From Streptomyces sp. NRRL B-1347 (lineage in GTDB: Bacteria; Actinomycetota; Actinomycetes; Streptomycetales; Streptomycetaceae), in contig NZ_JOJM01000003.1 of NCBI RefSeq assembly GCF_000720325.1, forward strand, positions 124,001-188,000: DNA of 64,000 nt, in the 5' to 3' direction. The notes beneath the pieces were generated by a model, which saw nothing but the letters and a program-made list of their open reading frames with translations, was not told where the DNA came from and did no database searches. Below are positions 10,512-18,492 of the stretch, one piece after another. The translations under genes and the position numbers were made by a program. Each line of letters starts with the position of its first letter. Position 1 is the stretch's first letter.

Positions 10512-11216
10512 ATGGCTCAGATTCGACTGCTGATCGCCGATGACCGCATCGTGACCCGATCCGGCCTCGTGGCGATGAGCAGGGAGGCTCCCGGACTCGA
10601 CGTGATCGGCGTGACCCAGGACGTGGCCGGCGTCCTGACCGCCGTCGACTGCCTGGACCCCGATGTCGTCCTGCTCAATCTCCGCAAACTCTCCGGGGAC
10701 AGCCTGCGCCGCCTCGCCCAGCTCATCGGCGCCCACGTCTCGATCATCGTCCTGTGGTGCCACGACTCCGCCGTCACCGTCCAGGACGCGTTACGGGCCA
10801 AGGTCGCCGGATTCATGGCCCTTGAGATCCTGCAGGAGGAATTCGCAAGCGTGATCGCCCTGGTCGACCGCGGCTGCGCCGCATATCTCTTCCCGCGCGA
10901 ACGGATCCGCGATATCAGCGACGGCTTTCCGACGACGGCGCCGGTGACCTCGGGAGCGATGTCGACCCTCACCTCACGGGAGAGCGACGTACTGCATCTC
11001 CTGGCCGGCGGCATGACGAACAAACAGATCGGGTCGGCCCTGCATATCGCCGAGAACACGGTGAAGAAACACGTCCATCGTGCGATGAACAAGTTATCGG
11101 CCTCCAGCCGGGTGGAAGCGGCACTCCTCGTTTCCCGCCTCGGCCCGCGGGAGTTGACGGCGCACGGCCGCACCGCCCGGGGTCAGCAGAGGAGCGATCT
11201 GAGCAGCACCTCATAG
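10512..11216 (+). CDS. Atypical NarL/LuxR response regulator, TTA codons (bldA-dependent)
   Basis: 234 aa. A receiver-like domain (1-~125) is followed by a LuxR HTH (~155-215: LTSRESDVLHLLAGGMTNKQ and IAENTVKKHVHRAMNKL). The acidic pair D10/D11 is kept, but the phospho-acceptor is Asn56 (VVLLNLRKL instead of VVLLDxR) and the strand-5 Lys is also lost. The protein should therefore not be switched by a kinase, as for RedZ/JadR1-type regulators. Two Leu codons are TTA, at 10791 (codon 94) and 11094 (codon 195), so translation should need the bldA tRNA. It heads the diiron/dehydrogenase region and is a candidate cluster-situated activator. Confidence 0.9.
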   Translation: MAQIRLLIADDRIVTRSGLVAMSREAPGLDVIGVTQDVAGVLTAVDCLDPDVVLLNLRKLSGDSLRRLAQLIGAHVSIIVLWCHDSAVTVQDALRAKVAGFMALEILQEEFASVIALVDRGCAAYLFPRERIRDISDGFPTTAPVTSGAMSTLTSRESDVLHLLAGGMTNKQIGSALHIAENTVKKHVHRAMNKLSASSRVEAALLVSRLGPRELTAHGRTARGQQRSDLSSTS

Positions 11217-11803
11217 GTCCGCCCCGCGTCGGCGACCGTCGCGGCGCCCGTCATCGCGACCTCATGGCCGAGATACGTCAGGGCGCCGAGCAGCGCGAGC
11301 GCGAGCCGTCGGGATCCGGCGGCGCCCGCGTCCGCCGCGCCGAGGCCGGACGCTCCGCGCGCGGAGCGCGCCCGCTCCACGAGGCGGACCGTCGACGACA
11401 GCCACCACTGCTCGTCGATCCGGCGCCAGCGCTCGTAGCCGAGGACCGCGGGCGCGTCGAGCAGGAGCAGCCGGGCGACGGCAGGGTCGGCGCAGAACCC
11501 GAGGAACTCCAGGCCGGACCGCAGGAGAAGAGGCACCGGCTCGCCCTCGGCGCCACGGTCCGCCCCGGCGGCCCGGACCCGCACGGCGAGCTCCCGGTGG
11601 ATGTCGTGCACCACGTCCACGAGCAGCGCCTCCTTGCCCGGCCAGTGGTGGTAGAGCGCACCGGTCGTGAGCCCCGCGCCCCCGGCGATCTCCGCGATGG
11701 TCGTCGCGGAGTACCCGTGCTCACCGAACAACTGGCGTGCGGTACGGATGAGTTGGGCCCGGGTGGCCTCGGTCCGCTCTGCGTTGGATCTGCGCGGCGA
11801 CAT
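11183..11803 (-). CDS. TetR-family repressor
   Basis: 206 aa. The N-terminal HTH is clear: AQLIRTARQLFGEHGYSATT, IAEIAGGAGLTTGALYHHWP. The C-terminal ligand domain is of normal size. It is divergent from the thioesterase gene with only 24 bp between the starts, so it probably controls that gene and itself through GAAC-N8-GTTC near 11807. Its 3' end overlaps the convergent LuxR gene by 34 bp. Confidence 0.93.
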   Translation of the reverse strand: MSPRRSNAERTEATRAQLIRTARQLFGEHGYSATTIAEIAGGAGLTTGALYHHWPGKEALLVDVVHDIHRELAVRVRAAGADRGAEGEPVPLLLRSGLEFLGFCADPAVARLLLLDAPAVLGYERWRRIDEQWWLSSTVRLVERARSARGASGLGAADAGAAGSRRLALALLGALTYLGHEVAMTGAATVADAGRTYEVLLRSLLC

Positions 11804-11827
11804 ACCGAACGATGCTATGTTCCTTCG

Positions 11828-12241
11828 ATGATGGATGTCGACGCGGCCCAAGCTGTCCTCGATAACAGCCCCTTCGGCCCCTGGTGGGGATTCAAGGTGG
11901 AAGCCGTCACCAAGGGGCACGCCAAGGTCTCGCTGCCGCAGCGCCCCGAGCTCTTCCGCCCCGGCGGCGTCCTGCAGGGCGGCTGCGCCATGACGCTCGC
12001 CGACGTGACCTGCTGGATCGCGATCATGTCGCTCTTCGGCGCGGACGATCCGTCCGTCACCCAGCAGATGACGACGAGCTTCCTCGGCCCGGCCCGCACC
12101 GATCTGCTCTGCGAGTCCACCATCGTCAGGCCCGGCCGCCTCATCGTCTACGGCACCGCCGAGACGACCGACACCGCGGGCAAGCTCGTCTCCCACCACA
12201 CCCTCACCTACATCCGGCCGCCGCAGCGGGCCGGAGCCTGA
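11828..12241 (+). CDS. PaaI-type hotdog thioesterase
   Basis: 137 aa, a single hotdog domain with the family signature FRPGGVLQGGCAMTLADVTC (helix with the acidic residue after HGG-like loop). It probably hydrolyses an acyl-CoA or aryl-CoA thioester as a tetramer. The Met-Met start has no strong ribosome site. It may be the first gene of the following operon or belong only to the TetR pair; 183 bp separate it from the diiron gene. Confidence 0.88.
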   Translation: MMDVDAAQAVLDNSPFGPWWGFKVEAVTKGHAKVSLPQRPELFRPGGVLQGGCAMTLADVTCWIAIMSLFGADDPSVTQQMTTSFLGPARTDLLCESTIVRPGRLIVYGTAETTDTAGKLVSHHTLTYIRPPQRAGA

Positions 12242-12327
12242 GGCCGGGCGCCCGGCGCGGAGCCGGGTCGCGGAATGCCGCACCCCGCGCACCACCGACG
12301 CGTACCACCAAAGAGCCATCGGAATAC

Positions 12328-12370
12328 CCCCATCGAGCCCTGCCGATATGGCCCCATCGTGGCCTGTCGA
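12328..12370. repeat. Two 19-bp direct repeats upstream of the diiron operon
   Basis: CCCCATCGAGCCCTGCCGA (12328-12346) and CCCCATCGTGGCCTGTCGA (12352-12370) match at 16 of 19 positions, with starts 24 bp apart, 55 bp before the ATG at 12425. They are a plausible tandem site for an activator such as the LuxR protein at 10512. Confidence 0.5.
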
Positions 12371-12424
12371 CCTCGCGAGTCGGCCGGATAGTCTCCATTT
12401 CTCGGCTACCCGGAGGAGATTCGT

Positions 12425-13162
12425 ATGGGAGACGTCTTTTCGGAGACTGTAAACCTGGAGAGTGTCGGTGAACTCCCCGAGGAATACCACGAGGTACTGA
12501 CGCATCAGATGCTCGCCAATGGCGAGGGCGAGCTGAGTGCAGGCGACACCTACGTCGATTCGTTCTACCCCCTCGCACCCAATGCCGACGAACGCTATGT
12601 GTGCCTCAAGTTCGGCATGGAAGAGGTGGACCATTTCCGGCGCTTCGCCAAACTCCTGACGCCGCTCGGCATCGACACCTCGCACATGGTGAACCAGGCC
12701 GTGGCGGACCGGCGTTACTTCCCCGCCGAGAGCATGACCACACAGATCACCGTGTGGGAGGAGCGCGCCGCGTTCAGCTTCCTCTGCGAGCTCGAAGGCC
12801 ACTTCCAGATCAAGGAAATGACCACGAGCACGTACGGGCCGCTGCGCGTCGAGGCCGACGCGATCCTCAAGGAGGAGGCCCGGCACTTCGGCTACGGAAA
12901 GCGCCTGATGCAGGAGGCGTACGACGCGGGCGGCCAGTCCCGCGACCGGGCGCAGAAAGCGCTCGACAAGTTCTACCCGATGGCGCTCGACATGTTCGGG
13001 CGGCCCGACTCCCGCCGCGGCCGCCTCGCCGTGAAGTGGGGGCTGCGCCGGCACGACAACGGCGAGCTGCGCGAGCTCTACAAGACCGCGATCGCGCAGC
13101 ACATCGAGAAGATCGGCTTCTCCGTACCCAAGATCGACCCCTCCCAGCTGCAGTTCGCCTGA
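12425..13162 (+). CDS. PaaA-like ferritin-fold diiron oxygenase
   Basis: 245 aa, four-helix ferritin-like protein related to the phenylacetate-CoA oxygenase (PaaA/PaaC) family. Iron ligands are arranged as expected: E34/E36, then E67-x2-H70 (GMEEVDHF), E122/E124, and E151-x2-H154 (ILKEEARHFG). With both ExxH motifs intact it is likely a working dinuclear iron or Fe/Mn oxygenase. PaaBCDE partners are absent, so it is not phenylacetate catabolism. GGAGGAGA precedes the ATG. It opens an operon with a second diiron-type protein, an amino-acid dehydrogenase and a nitroreductase. Confidence 0.82.
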   Translation: MGDVFSETVNLESVGELPEEYHEVLTHQMLANGEGELSAGDTYVDSFYPLAPNADERYVCLKFGMEEVDHFRRFAKLLTPLGIDTSHMVNQAVADRRYFPAESMTTQITVWEERAAFSFLCELEGHFQIKEMTTSTYGPLRVEADAILKEEARHFGYGKRLMQEAYDAGGQSRDRAQKALDKFYPMALDMFGRPDSRRGRLAVKWGLRRHDNGELRELYKTAIAQHIEKIGFSVPKIDPSQLQFA

Positions 13163-13240
13163 GCGGCGTCGGCCCGCTCCCTCCCCCGGCGTGAACCGCT
13201 TCCCCCCGGGGCCCCGTCCACCTCACCGGAGTAGGAATCG

Positions 13241-14035
13241 ATGACGACGACCGACACGCTGATCGACCGGATCAAGACGCACCGCGTCTTCCACCACCCC
13301 CTCTACGACCACTGGGCCGCGCGGCCCCCGTCCGCCGAGGTCTCGGGCGCGCTCTTCCACCAGGTGCAGTCGTTCTGCGCCTCCACCCGCCCCGGCGGCG
13401 ACTTCCCGACCGCCCTGCGCGGCATCGGCTGGGACGAGCAGGCCGTCCTCATCGAGGAGATCGTCGACAGCGAGTCCGGACACGGCCCCGAACTCGCGAC
13501 CATGGCGGGCCACATCGTCAACCGCACCGGCGCCCCGGTCTTCGACGACGTGTACGACACCGAGCGGGTCGAGGCCTGGCTCAAGACCTCGTCGGACCGG
13601 CTGCTGGCCACGCTGCCCGGGTACGACCGGGAGACCGGTCTGACCGCGCAGGCGGCGGCCGCCATCGCGGTGTTCGAGCGCCGGTTCTCCACCGACGCCG
13701 ACACCACGGTCCGCAATCTGGGCACGGCGCTCGCGCTGGAGATCATCTCCAACCAGTCCCTGATCCCCGGCGAGAAGCGCGCCCTCATCGACTCCGGTCA
13801 CTACAAGACCGATCTCGAAGAGCCGGAAATGCACTACATGGCGGAGCACTGGGGCGACTCCGGTGCCGAGCAGCAGCACGAAGCGAATGTGATCCAGGCC
13901 GTCTCCTCCGTCATGGACGCATCGAACAGCGACCAGATCGCCCAGGGCGTGGAGGACTTCCTGGAATCACTGTGCGCGTTGTGGGACGTCCTGGACGCCG
14001 CGCTGCTCTCGTCCGGAGTGCAGCCGGCCGAATAA
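13241..14035 (+). CDS. Haem-oxygenase-like diiron (iron-containing redox) protein
   Basis: 264 aa, all-helical, of the TenA/PqqC/haem-oxygenase-like superfamily often annotated iron-containing redox enzyme. Possible ligands are E84-x6-H91 (ELATMAGH) and, late in the protein, H198/H203 with E210-x2-H213 (AEQQHEAN). The canonical H-x3-D-x2-H motif is not matched exactly. Enzymes with this fold make N-oxygenated or cleaved amino acids (for example SznF, BesC, RohS). 78 bp after the PaaA-like gene, same strand. Family call moderate, activity inferred. Confidence 0.7.
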   Translation: MTTTDTLIDRIKTHRVFHHPLYDHWAARPPSAEVSGALFHQVQSFCASTRPGGDFPTALRGIGWDEQAVLIEEIVDSESGHGPELATMAGHIVNRTGAPVFDDVYDTERVEAWLKTSSDRLLATLPGYDRETGLTAQAAAAIAVFERRFSTDADTTVRNLGTALALEIISNQSLIPGEKRALIDSGHYKTDLEEPEMHYMAEHWGDSGAEQQHEANVIQAVSSVMDASNSDQIAQGVEDFLESLCALWDVLDAALLSSGVQPAE

Positions 14036-14119
14036 TTCGCTGCCGGACGGGCCGGCGGTTCACGCCTGACGGCGGGGCCGCCGGTCCGGCCGTCACTGGA
14101 CGGGATTCTGGGGTGGGTC

Positions 14120-15196
14120 ATGAGCGTATTCGACGAAATCGACGGCCACGAGCAGGTGCTTTTCAGTACGGGCCCCGGCGGGCTCAGATGCGTCATCGCC
14201 ATTCATTCGACGCTGCTGGGCCCCGCGCTCGGCGGCGTCCGCTTTCTTCCCTACCGCGACGAGGACCAGGCGATCAGCGACGCGTTGCGCCTCTCCCGCG
14301 CCATGACGTACAAAGCGGCCTGCGCGGGACTCGACATCGGGGGCGGAAAGGCCGTCGTCTTCGGGGGCGCGGGCGTGGAGAAGTCGGAGCCGCTGCTCCG
14401 CGCGTTCGGGCAGGCTGTCGAGAGCCTTTCCGGCCGGTTCATCGCCGCCTGCGACATGGGCATCACCACCGCCGACCTCCGGGTGATGCGGAAGGAGTCC
14501 CAGTGGATCCGCGGCCTCGACGCCGAGGAGGGCGGCTCCGGCGAGTCCGGCGCGATGACCGCGTACGGCGTGAGCCTCGGCATCCGGGCGTGTCTGCGGC
14601 ACCTCGACGACAGCGAGAGCCTGGAGGGCCGCCACGTCGCCATCGACGGCGTCGGCAAGGTGGGGGCCCGGCTCGCCACGCTCCTGGCGGAGGACGGCGC
14701 CCGCCTCTGGGTGGCCGACGTCGACCAGGAGAAGGCCGAACGGGTGGCCCGAGCGTGCGGGGCGGAGGTCGTCAGCCGGGAGAAGCTCTACCTGCTCGAC
14801 GTGGACGTCCTCAGCCCCAACGCGATCGGCAACGTCATCGACGCCGACCTCGTGGACCGGCTCCGCTGCCGGATCGTCGCGGGCGGGGCCAACAACCAGC
14901 TCACCGCGCCGACGGTCGCGGACCGGCTCGCGGCACGCGGCATCCTCTACGCGCCGGACTTCGTCATCAACGCCCTCGGTCTGATCCAGGTGGTCGACGA
15001 ACTGCACCCCGCGGGCCACGACATGAACCGGGTCAGACAGCGCGCCGAACTCATCCCGGAGCGGCTCGGCGAGATCTTCAACCGGTCCCAGCACCTGCGC
15101 ATCAGCACGGCCGCCGCCGCGATCAGCATGGCCAGGGACCGGCTCGCGGCGGTGCGGACGGTGCGGTCGTTCTGGCTGCCGCCGCGGTGCGCCTGA
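14120..15196 (+). CDS. Leu/Val/Phe-type NAD-dependent amino-acid dehydrogenase
   Basis: 358 aa. It shows the Glu/Leu/Phe/Val dehydrogenase pattern: LGPALGGVRFLPY, then AMTYKAACAGLDIGGGKAVV with both active-site lysines, ACDMGI with the catalytic Asp, and a Rossmann segment VAIDGVGKVGARLA. It would interconvert a hydrophobic amino acid and its 2-oxo acid with NH3 and NAD(H). Compared with the valine dehydrogenase known from Streptomyces it is similar in length but diverged. Its place behind two diiron genes suggests it supplies or removes the amine of a pathway intermediate. Confidence 0.9.
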   Translation: MSVFDEIDGHEQVLFSTGPGGLRCVIAIHSTLLGPALGGVRFLPYRDEDQAISDALRLSRAMTYKAACAGLDIGGGKAVVFGGAGVEKSEPLLRAFGQAVESLSGRFIAACDMGITTADLRVMRKESQWIRGLDAEEGGSGESGAMTAYGVSLGIRACLRHLDDSESLEGRHVAIDGVGKVGARLATLLAEDGARLWVADVDQEKAERVARACGAEVVSREKLYLLDVDVLSPNAIGNVIDADLVDRLRCRIVAGGANNQLTAPTVADRLAARGILYAPDFVINALGLIQVVDELHPAGHDMNRVRQRAELIPERLGEIFNRSQHLRISTAAAAISMARDRLAAVRTVRSFWLPPRCA

Positions 15197-15232
15197 GCCG
15201 CCGCCCGTACGGCAGGCACGGCCCGGGGCCCC

Positions 15233-15262
15233 GCCACCGCCACCGCCACCGCCACCGCCACC
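15233..15262 (+). repeat. Hexanucleotide repeat (GCCACC)5
   Basis: Five perfect copies of GCCACC in the 105-bp gap between the dehydrogenase and nitroreductase genes. Copy number could vary by slippage and alter operon spacing. Confidence 0.9.
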
Positions 15263-15301
15263 GACGAAGGGACGCCGAACCGCGATGAGGAGCGACCGCT
15301 G

Positions 15302-15910
15302 ATGGAGTTGGAAGCCGCGATACGCACGCGCCGCAGCCAGCACCGACTGATCGACCCCGCCCCGAGCGACGAGGAGTTCGTCGATCTGCTCGGCTGGGCC
15401 GCGACCGCGCCCGATCACGGCCACCTCCGCCCCTGGCGGTGGATCCTCGTACGCGGCGACAGCCGGACGGCCCTCGGCGCGGCCCTCGCGTCCGGCGCCG
15501 CCGACGCGGAGGCGGTCCGGCGCGAGGCGCGCAAACCCCTGCGCGCCCCGCTCCTCGCCACCCTGGTCCTCGTCCCCCAGCGCAACCACCGCGTGCCGGA
15601 CTGGGAGCAACTGGCCGCCAGCAGCGCGATGGTCAACTCCCTGATGCTCCTCCTCCACGACCGCGGCTTCGGCAGCATGTGGCGCACCGGCCCGTCGGTC
15701 GACTCCGCGGGAGCCCGCCTCCTGCTGCGCCTCGCACCCCACGAACGCATCATCGGCTGGCTCTACGTGGGCACCCCGGACCCCACCCGCCGCACCGTCC
15801 CGCGCACCCCGGTCGCGGTCGGCCACCGCGTCTCCCGGTTCACGCCGCCTCCTGAGACCGTCCCGGGGCGGATGCACGAGGCGCGGGGCCTCACCAGCCC
15901 CGTCCCGTAG
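15302..15910 (+). CDS. Compact nitroreductase family flavoprotein
   Basis: 202 aa. It is similar to the small YdjA-type nitroreductases: [13 protein letters not shown] with the FMN-phosphate Arg-Ser pair, [19 protein letters not shown], and [20 protein letters not shown]. It probably binds FMN as a homodimer and reduces a nitro, quinone or C=C group with NAD(P)H. GAGGAG lies 9 nt before the ATG. It is the last gene of the diiron operon. The stop lies in a 20-bp tandem repeat. Confidence 0.9.
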
Positions 15911-16586: not shown

Positions 16587-17135
16587 CTAACGGCGTCCCC
16601 CGAACTCCCAGTCGTGCACTTCGACGTCCGCGTACCGCCCCGGATCCAGGACCTCCCGAGCCGTCTCCGGGTCCGGGGACCGGACGAGGGCCGCCGTGCC
16701 GAGCCAGGCGGTGGCGTCGTCGGAGAGCAGCGGGCCGAAGGCGATCAGGTCGTCGTGCGCGGGCGCGGTGGCGGGGACCGGCGCGGGGGCGGGGCCCAGG
16801 CCGATGACCAGGTAGCGGTTGCCGCCGGTGGGGCCGCCGGGGTAGTCCCACATCGTGCGGCCCAGCAGGTTGCGCCAGCGGCGCAGCAGGACGTCGCGGT
16901 ACACGCCGGCCTGGTGGTTGGGCTCGTCGAAGGCGAAGGCGCGCGCGGCGGCGGGGTCGGGCAGGTCGACGATGTGGACGCTGCCGCTGGGCGTCTCGCC
17001 GTCGCTCGCGAAGGTCGGGCCGCGGGCGATCAGTTCCTTCTCGTACCGGTCCATGTAGGACCAGTGCTCCTCGACGAGCCGTTCGCGCAGGGCGCGGGAG
17101 CCGGTCCTGTCACGGTGGTAGCAGAAGAATTCCAT
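16587..17135 (-). CDS. YciI-like domain protein
   Basis: About 182 aa with two halves, each of the dimeric ferredoxin-like YciI type (MEFFCYHRDRTGSRALRERL at the N-terminus; a second unit from HDDLIAFGPLL). The family is small and mostly of unknown function. Start ATG 17135 gives the family N-terminus; a GTG at 17147 is possible, but its GGGGGAG would abut it. Divergent from the StyA-like gene. Confidence 0.8.
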   Translation of the reverse strand: MEFFCYHRDRTGSRALRERLVEEHWSYMDRYEKELIARGPTFASDGETPSGSVHIVDLPDPAAARAFAFDEPNHQAGVYRDVLLRRWRNLLGRTMWDYPGGPTGGNRYLVIGLGPAPAPVPATAPAHDDLIAFGPLLSDDATAWLGTAALVRSPDPETAREVLDPGRYADVEVHDWEFGGRR

Positions 17136-17247
17136 GGTCGCAGACACTCCCCCACCGCTCGCCGCTTCTCAACCGGCTTTCCCGGATACTCCCACGGGTA
17201 CGACTGAGCCGTGTCGGGCCGATCGGGCCGGAGGGCAGGAGGAACAG

Positions 17248-18492
17248 GTGCGCAGGATCGCGATCGTGGGAGCGGGGCAGGCCGGGCTGCAGCTCGGCCT
17301 CGGGCTCCTCGGGGCCGGGTACGACGTCACGCTCGTCGCCGAGCGGCGGCCGGACGAGGTGCGCGGCGGGCGGGTCACGTCGACCCAGCTCATGTTCGGG
17401 CCCACGCTGGCGATCGAGCGGGCGGCGGGCCTGGCCTTCTGGGACGACAGCGCGCCCGTGATGCCCGGCTTCGAGCTGAGCAACTGGGACCCGGAGGGCC
17501 AACCGGACGCTCCCGTGCGCCGGTTCAGCGCACCCTTCGACGCCGAAGTGCGCTCCGTGGACCAGCGCGTGAAGCTCGCGGCCTGGCTGGAGCTGTTCGA
17601 GGAGCGCGGCGGGCGCGTCGAGTACCGCTCCGCGGGCCCCGCCGAGGTGGCCGCGCTCGCCGCCGCGCACGAGCTGACCGTACTCGCCACCGGCCGGAGC
17701 GAGCTGTCCGCGCTCTTCGGCCGCGACGACGCCCGGTCCGTCTTCGACCGGCCGCAGCGCTCCCTCGCCTGCTTCTACGTGAGCGGCGGCAGCCACGACG
17801 CCGACGACCCGGCCGCCGCGTACGTACGCAACACGGGGGTGCCGCCGACCGGTGACGTGATCATGCTGCGGGCGCTCACGGTCGGCGGGCCCTGCGACAT
17901 CCTGCTGTTCGAGGGCCGGTGGGGCGGCGCCTACGACTGCTGGAGCGACCGGCCGGAACCGGCCGCCGGGCTGCGGCGGGCGCTCGACCTGCTGCGGACG
18001 TACGCGCCCTGGGAGTACGAGCGGTTCCGCGGGGCCGAGCCGACCGACCCGGGTGCCGCCCTGTACGGCGCGGTCACCCCGGTGGTGCGCCACCCGGTGG
18101 CCCGCGTGGACGGTGACCTGTGCGTCCTCGGCATGGCGGACGTGCTCGCCGTGCACGACCCCATCACCGGGCAGGGCTCCAACAACGCGGCGCGGGCGGC
18201 GGCCGGTTACCTCACCGCCATCGTCGAGCGGGGCGGGCGGCCGTTCGACGAGCCGTGGATGCGGGAGACGTTCGCCGCGTACTGGGAGAACGCCCGGCAC
18301 ACGCACGCCTTCACCGACCTGATGCTGCGGGACCCGCAGCCCGAGCACGTGCGACGCGCCGTCGGGGCCGCCTTCGACCACCCCGAGACCGCCCACCGCT
18401 TCGCCAACGGGTACGCCGATCCGCTCACTTACCGCGACTGGCTGATGGATCCGTCCGGCGCGCAGGCCTACCTCGACCGGCTCGACACGTAG
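17248..18492 (+). CDS. StyA-type styrene/indole monooxygenase (FAD)
   Basis: 414 aa, the usual StyA length. A Rossmann GxGxxG starts the protein (IAIVGAGQAGLQLGLGL), and the later FAD motif is GDLCVLGMADVLAVHDPI. GTG 17248 has AGGAGGAA directly upstream. StyA enzymes epoxidise styrene- or indole-like alkenes with FADH2 supplied by the reductase StyB; no StyB gene is in the window. The quinone reductase 1 kb downstream is a different fold. The 3' end overlaps the convergent XRE gene by 25 bp. Confidence 0.88.
   Translation: MRRIAIVGAGQAGLQLGLGLLGAGYDVTLVAERRPDEVRGGRVTSTQLMFGPTLAIERAAGLAFWDDSAPVMPGFELSNWDPEGQPDAPVRRFSAPFDAEVRSVDQRVKLAAWLELFEERGGRVEYRSAGPAEVAALAAAHELTVLATGRSELSALFGRDDARSVFDRPQRSLACFYVSGGSHDADDPAAAYVRNTGVPPTGDVIMLRALTVGGPCDILLFEGRWGGAYDCWSDRPEPAAGLRRALDLLRTYAPWEYERFRGAEPTDPGAALYGAVTPVVRHPVARVDGDLCVLGMADVLAVHDPITGQGSNNAARAAAGYLTAIVERGGRPFDEPWMRETFAAYWENARHTHAFTDLMLRDPQPEHVRRAVGAAFDHPETAHRFANGYADPLTYRDWLMDPSGAQAYLDRLDT

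Follow-up and report, generated by a model that had tools for sequence, protein, structure and literature searches.

A 64,000-nucleotide stretch of the Streptomyces sp. NRRL B-1347 genome (contig NZ_JOJM01000003.1, positions 124,001 to 188,000; hereafter, the window) contains, at positions 10512–15910, seven genes that form one conserved, separately regulated unit. This conclusion is well supported, since the same gene order recurs in seven genomes and the unit thus goes beyond a chance neighborhood. Its core encodes a PaaA-like diiron protein, a predicted heme-oxygenase-like dimetal (HDO) protein, an amino-acid dehydrogenase, and a nitroreductase-family flavoprotein; a thioesterase and two regulators are encoded upstream. 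The reading that we favor, with about even confidence, is that of an operon, complete in itself and under developmental control, for a small specialized metabolite.

Gene content of the unit

The features of the unit are as follows; below, proteins are also referred to by the first position of their genes.

10512–11216, plus strand: NarL/LuxR-type, response-regulator-like putative activator (GerE, 68.6 bits; Response_reg, 24.5 bits, not reaching the cut-off of 30.2)
11183–11803, minus strand: TetR-family regulator (TetR_N, 60.9 bits), divergent from the thioesterase gene
11799–11821, no strand: 23-bp conserved element with arms ACATA/TATGT, overlapping the TetR start codon
11828–12241, plus strand: single-hotdog thioesterase (4HBT, 37.7 bits; TIGR00369, 37.9 bits against a cut-off of 36.6)
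12334–12424, plus strand: conserved block directly 5' of the PaaA-like gene, from an alignment of six genomes
12425–13162, plus strand: stand-alone PaaA-like ferritin-fold diiron protein, 245 aa (PaaA_PaaC, 66.4 bits)
13241–14035, plus strand: HDO protein of a divergent subfamily, 264 aa, with the fold assigned by structure prediction
14120–15196, plus strand: Leu/Val-type L-amino-acid dehydrogenase, 358 aa, with both ELFV domains
15302–15910, plus strand: small YdjA-type nitroreductase-family flavoprotein, 202 aa (Nitroreductase PF00881, 69.9 bits against 23.5)

An earlier reading, made from the sequence alone, had placed two diiron-type proteins, a dehydrogenase, a nitroreductase, a thioesterase, and TetR and LuxR regulators here. 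The list of open reading frames (ORFs), the Pfam scan of these genes, and structure predictions bear out both the positions and the families. The five plus-strand genes from the thioesterase onward are separated by gaps of 78–183 bp and do not overlap.

The family scan around the cassette covered ten of the twelve ORFs between 8107 and 18492. It revealed no transporter or resistance gene, and no acyl-CoA ligase or branched-chain oxo-acid dehydrogenase, within the seven-gene unit. No nonribosomal peptide synthetase (NRPS) was found among the scanned ORFs, and no ORF between 7000 and 22000 exceeds 639 aa, the rest of the window being outside the family scan. A defense system was considered and rejected, as PADLOC gave nothing for three of the four core proteins and weak, non-specific matches for the dehydrogenase.

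Conservation of the unit in Streptomyces

A scan of 84,980 species genomes with the 13241 protein, sensitive to close relatives only, yielded five loci (L004–L008), all of them in Streptomyces. The genes for the LuxR and TetR regulators, the thioesterase, the PaaA-like protein, the HDO, and the dehydrogenase stand in identical order in all five, and the nitroreductase gene is present in four; a sixth genome (G758) has all seven. Co-occurrence across Streptomyces, proposed as a check in the sequence-only reading, is thus favorable: with the window included, six genes keep one order in 7/7 genomes, and the nitroreductase is found in 6/7. All seven genes are under purifying selection (dN/dS, i.e., the ratio of nonsynonymous to synonymous substitution rates, of 0.05–0.34 across 41 pairwise comparisons), and the PaaA-like gene, with values of 0.06–0.08, ranks with those under the strongest constraint.

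The outer flanks are of three kinds: a penicillin-binding protein and an alpha/beta hydrolase in L004–L006; a transporter and a chitinase in L007 and L008; and AlkD, DUF4291, and a StyA-like protein in the window and G758. The last of these, a styrene-monooxygenase-A-like flavoprotein encoded downstream of the cassette at 17134–18492 of the window (StyA, 182 of 550 bits), is 90% identical in G758. Approximately 1 kb of extra DNA separates the LuxR and TetR genes in L004 and L005. In Streptomyces sp. WM6378 (L006, 7387–7550), which has no nitroreductase gene, the dehydrogenase gene is followed within 163 bp by a 97% match to the penicillin-binding protein gene of L004. The branched-chain amino-acid transporter genes of L007 and L008 were set aside as a clue to the substrate, because the chitinase gene intervenes and only these two loci carry them.

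The HDO protein

At E 0.1, neither Pfam nor NCBIfam has a family that matches the 13241 protein. Its predicted structure (predicted local distance difference test, pLDDT, 93) has the helical fold of the heme-oxygenase type, with HrmI, CADD, and BesC as the nearest folds. The best structural matches include the amino-acid-acting HDOs HrmI, BesC, and PolF; CADD and BesC differ from HrmI by no more than about 1.4 Z units, and UndA ranks below HrmI, CADD, BesC, and PolF. Comparison of the HDO profile with PDB chains returned only BesC (E 0.86). The Pfam HDO model PF14518 does not match the window protein; of its 40 aligned relatives, three match at E 1 or below, the best of them at 4.6e-5, and a profile-profile comparison with 30 PF14518 proteins gave nothing.

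The sequence-only reading had made the presence of metal ligands in this protein a point to be checked. Candidate ligands do exist, namely E78-x2-H81, E167, H203 (or D206), and E210-x2-H213, and E78, H81, E167, H203, E210, and H213 are invariant in 40/40 aligned relatives. The E-x2-H spacing is like that of MboA (PMC13185094), the spacing on the third helix differs, and D/E206 could replace H203. The candidate ligand set is either 3H/3C with a shifted histidine or an unusual 2H/4C. The window genome encodes a second HDO paralogue, 57% identical, on contig 10.

The PaaA-like protein

The model of the 12425 protein (pLDDT 95.1) has PaaA as its best Foldseek match, followed by the Sulfolobus protein SSO1313. 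The predicted fold and two E-x2-H motifs assign it to the broad class of PaaA-like ferritin-fold diiron proteins. Positions E36, E67-x2-H70, E122, and E151-x2-H154 align with the diiron positions, i.e., with the residues of E. coli PaaA that we take to bind iron. All six keep a carboxylate or His in 30/30 relatives, E122 being Asp in four of them.

Two specific assignments were rejected. As PaaA of phenylacetyl-CoA epoxidase, the protein reaches 51.6 of the 280 bits of the equivalog TIGR02156, and PaaB, PaaC, PaaD, and PaaE are absent from the ten scanned ORFs; as an AurF-type N-oxygenase, it scores 14.9 bits against a cut-off of 29.6. The window genome has a separate, more typical PaaA-family gene, whose score falls in the same range as the hits of most of the 41 genomes searched. 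At two other loci (L034, 5059–8484; L035, 4521–8017) a stand-alone PaaA-like protein of a second kind was observed, with a radical SAM protein and a ketosynthase (identified by a Pfam scan of L034 only) and a small carrier-like protein (by eye) as neighbors.

The nitroreductase and its pairing with the HDO

The solved chains nearest to the 15302 protein in the PDB are of the YdjA type, and the protein itself falls short of the YdjA equivalog PRK10828 (112 of 183 bits). Its cofactor is probably flavin mononucleotide.

The window genome contains only two relatives of this nitroreductase at E 1e-6, and each adjoins one of the two HDO paralogues; the first is the 15302 protein itself, and the gene for the other immediately precedes that of the second HDO paralogue on contig 10. 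At this other locus (L009, 9084–12494, on contig 10 of G000) genes for a LysR regulator, a YdjA-type nitroreductase, an HDO, and a double-hotdog acyl-CoA thioesterase stand in a row. In eight further HDO-bearing genomes five nitroreductase relatives were found, all five inside cassettes; the pairing thus refers to nine genomes, all chosen for holding the HDO family. Three HDO-bearing genomes have no nitroreductase relative, i.e., G140, G724, and WM6378. In G140 and G724 the HDO gene is part of an NRPS-type cluster and stands directly beside a gene for a fused electron-transfer flavoprotein (ETF).

A flavoprotein beside the HDO is therefore the rule in the genomes examined, with WM6378 as the one exception. 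Because the nitroreductase pairs with the HDO and an ETF replaces it in the NRPS-type setting, these observations suggest a flavoprotein partner for the HDO. By analogy with MboA and MboB (see below), the nitroreductase may serve as the electron donor of the HDO. A nitro or oxime product may instead be what it acts on, as the sequence-only reading had it; with electron delivery, the pairing and the replacement by ETF are at least equally compatible.

The NRPS-type cluster with the HDO family and the adjacent fused ETF-like flavoprotein is conserved between two genomes of the genus (L010, 7065–17443; L074, 1891–11427). It also encodes a lysine/ornithine N-monooxygenase, a PhyH oxygenase, an adenylation protein, a thioesterase, and a LuxR regulator.

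The dehydrogenase and the thioesterase

The 14120 protein has both domains and the catalytic Lys/Lys/Asp of the Leu/Val-type ELFV class: K65, K77, and D112 align with these residues, and presumably correspond to K68, K80, and D115 of leucine dehydrogenase. Among solved structures, ELFV/leucine dehydrogenases match best (286–287 bits), and tryptophan dehydrogenase is fifth (265.5 bits); of the database relatives that come after those of the cassette type, many are annotated as valine dehydrogenase. A tryptophan dehydrogenase route of the ScyB kind was rejected at 321.8 of the 600 bits of the ScyB equivalog.

Residue 286, which we take to lie next to the side-chain pocket, is Leu (in an NALG motif) in 7 of 121 aligned rows, which include the window's own and are all at least 83% identical to it, and Gly in the other 114. 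It is Leu in L004–L008 too, while the deeper relatives P0171, P0173, and P0174 retain Gly. This lineage-specific change from Gly to Leu suggests that the substrate pocket has been re-tuned in the Streptomyces branch. A second member of the family, 49% identical, is encoded elsewhere in the window genome, and the 14120 copy is hence likely dedicated to the unit.

The thioesterase is 92–94% identical between orthologues. Gln replaces His in what we take to be the usual HGG motif of hotdog thioesterases (QGG in 6/6 aligned proteins), and the Asp of LAD is kept. Together with the PaaA-like protein, the thioesterase points to a coenzyme A (CoA) or carrier thioester, a clue that the sequence-only reading had not used.

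Regulation

The LuxR gene contains TTA codons at positions 94 and 195 in the window, in line with its earlier description as bldA-type, and has at least one TTA codon in 7/7 genomes. Elsewhere in the unit, as far as the remaining six genes were aligned, TTA occurs only in the dehydrogenase genes of L004 and L006. The LuxR protein is a probable pathway activator, expected from these codons to be bldA-dependent.

The TetR gene is present in all seven genomes. The N-terminal part of its product resembles ScbR-type receptors (ScbR_bind_reg, 62.7 of 150 bits, under the cut-off). The 23-bp element at its start is identical in the 6/6 genomes aligned (G758 was not among them) and has 5-bp inverted arms; a search for inverted repeats with a minimum arm of 7 did not list the ACATA/TATGT pair. 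This element is a likely TetR operator, and the conserved block at 12334–12424 a possible promoter or regulatory region of the four-gene core. The TTA codons and the 23-bp element fit a specialized-metabolite switch.

Wider relatives and rarity of the HDO family

Protein searches yielded 332 relatives (from 4545 candidates) for the 13241 protein and 45 (from 399) for the PaaA-like protein. Co-occurrence in the database was deduced from equal-sized longest contigs across these searches rather than from the contigs themselves. For proteins 60–73% identical to those of the window, such matches of the HDO, the PaaA-like protein, and the dehydrogenase were all observed, e.g., on contigs of 14,769 and 4,956 bases and in Streptomyces sp. 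MST-110588. Eleven of the 39 PaaA-like clusters P0121–P0159 (identity of at least 56%; P0142 is without a contig, and the 138-residue piece P0162 was left out) match a contig of the best 120 of 332 HDO proteins. The contigs of seven of the best nine dehydrogenases (120 listed of 7690) match those of HDO or PaaA-like proteins, and contigs of dehydrogenases with 60–65% identity match in size those with both HDO and PaaA hits.

The HDO tree comprises 122 rows, i.e., 119 of the best 120 HDOs (a 177-residue piece was dropped) and three proteins from this analysis, and was midpoint-rooted for drawing only. A branch with 100/95 support sets apart 29 rows. These include 10 of the 11 HDOs that share an equal-sized contig with a PaaA-like protein, P0066 being the one on the opposite side, and all 13 rows labeled as cassette members by identity of at least 83%, not by the gene content of each genome. 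The second HDO paralogue of the window genome (P0111) and the copies of G140 and G724 are located on the other side of the branch.

The HDO family is rare in the genus, being found in 2/295 and 4/392 genomes of two overlapping samples, with the window genome in both. In a phylum-wide sample it occurs in 1/396 genomes, again the window genome. A plasmid collection contained no HDO relative, and the PaaA-family genes in 177 of its records were all less than 60% identical; viral contigs yielded no relative of the 12425 protein. Chromobacterium species carry a PaaA-like protein at 63–68% identity (P0140, P0145, P0149).

Proposed pathway and alternative explanations

Starting from the observed unit, its conservation, the predicted folds, the invariant candidate ligands, the HDO–nitroreductase pairing, the TTA codons, and the conserved element, we infer a step order, a substrate class, an electron-donor role, regulator roles, and a type of product. 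The HDO and the PaaA-like protein, as dimetal oxygenases or oxidases that depend on O2, would act in succession on a compound derived from an amino acid of the aliphatic (Val/Leu/Ile-like) class. The HDO with its flavoprotein partner would catalyze the first O2-dependent step, on an amino-acid-type substrate, with the YdjA-type nitroreductase as an NAD(P)H-dependent flavin electron donor; N-oxygenation or desaturation is the likeliest reaction, and we make no choice between them. The PaaA-like protein and the hotdog thioesterase would belong to a thioester stage, and the dehydrogenase would interconvert the amino-acid and 2-oxo-acid forms of the skeleton. The TetR protein may act as a repressor at an operator that overlaps the start of its own gene, and the TTA-containing LuxR protein may activate. 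The operon has no NRPS or polyketide synthase, and its product would be a small specialized metabolite.

A more specific version is considerably more tentative. The HDO would represent a divergent clade with unusual ligands, possibly 2H/4C, and a YdjA-type nitroreductase as its donor; one branch of this clade would have acquired a PaaA-like oxygenase and a re-tuned valine-type dehydrogenase, giving an NRPS-free path that starts at a branched-chain amino acid and ends in a small signal or antimetabolite under developmental control.

The sequence-only reading had proposed an undescribed tailoring cassette for N-oxidation and back-reduction. The HDO, the PaaA-like protein, or both would make a nitro, nitroso, oxime, or N-hydroxy amino acid; the nitroreductase would reduce it, and the dehydrogenase would equilibrate amine and oxo acid. 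Its first half stands, in that a conserved, regulated unit was found that we could not match to any described pathway, whereas the nitro/oxime role of the nitroreductase meets the alternative of electron delivery discussed above. N-oxidation as such is plausible chemistry, one of at least three that are open. However, CADD and BesC are structurally almost as near as HrmI, the neighbor of the HDO in G140 and G724 is an ETF rather than a nitroreductase, the PaaA-like protein is not of the AurF type, and WM6378 lacks the nitroreductase altogether; we therefore regard this scheme as possible rather than probable.

An acyl-thioester route appears unlikely. Here, an acyl group released by the thioesterase would undergo UndA-like decarboxylation or desaturation by the HDO, and the PaaA-like protein would introduce a hydroxyl group or an epoxide into an acyl-CoA; the only task of the dehydrogenase would be the supply of branched 2-oxo acids. 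The unit has neither an acyl-CoA ligase nor a branched-chain oxo-acid dehydrogenase, and UndA ranks under four other HDO-type folds in the structural comparison. A catabolic or protective operon, for amino-acid use or detoxification of nitro compounds, would have the common look given here by the TetR, dehydrogenase, and nitroreductase genes, and would suit a set without transporter or resistance gene. This explanation is quite improbable given the rarity of the HDO family in both genus samples, the TTA codon of the activator in every genome compared, and the second dehydrogenase elsewhere in the genome. Finally, the idea of unrelated genes that are neighbors by chance, for which one could cite the gaps without the overlaps of tight operons and the flanks shared with the near relative G758, is hardly credible, being already contradicted by the gene order, which is kept with different flanks in L004–L006 and L007–L008, by selection on all genes, and by contig matches that persist at 60–73% identity.

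Comparison with known systems

The sequence-only reading knew of no described pathway with this exact set, and we found none in the open-access literature, judged by titles and abstracts, with most subscription papers outside the search. The closest described logic is that of ham/pvf, in which an HDO and an AurF-like oxygenase act on valine; the mgo/leudiazen cluster is presumably of the same kind. In the ham/pvf clusters (valdiazen, fragin), HamA, heme-oxygenase-like according to the title of PDB entry 9vwb, and the AurF-like diiron N-oxygenase HamC act on a branched-chain amino acid, and the NRPS HamD loads valine (PMC11659414). Both systems combine an HDO with a second diiron enzyme, and the ham/pvf product is small and of the signaling type. 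The unit differs in that its second enzyme is PaaA-like rather than AurF-like and no NRPS is present; moreover, the accessible part of that report names no amino-acid dehydrogenase, nitroreductase, or hotdog thioesterase for ham/pvf (PMC11659414).

With PaaA, the 12425 protein shares the predicted fold and the positions of the diiron ligands, but it is far below the PaaA equivalog and has no PaaB/C/D/E among the scanned ORFs; the unit offers a diiron protein of the PaaA-like kind that stands apart from the phenylacetate complex. HrmI/BelK, which convert lysine to 6-nitronorleucine, are 15% identical to the 13241 protein. The 14120 protein has the domains and the catalytic Lys and Asp positions of Leu/Val/Trp dehydrogenases, but is under the ScyB cut-off and carries the NALG motif of only 7/121 rows.

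About a dozen HDOs have been functionally validated according to a 2026 review (PMC13108848). In mangotoxin biosynthesis, the HDO MboA works with MboB, a dedicated NAD(P)H reductase encoded alongside it, perhaps the first such HDO–reductase pair, as stated in the MboA paper (PMC13185094). On the same source, MboA shares with the 13241 protein the E-x2-H pair on the first ligand helix, whereas MboB contains flavin and Fe2S2 and the candidate partner here is of the nitroreductase family; the tripeptide substrate of MboA comes from ATP-grasp ligases, none of which is encoded among the cassette genes (PMC13185094). The unit offers a second candidate pair of an HDO and its partner, one that is directly testable, in a gene set small enough for reconstruction in one laboratory host.

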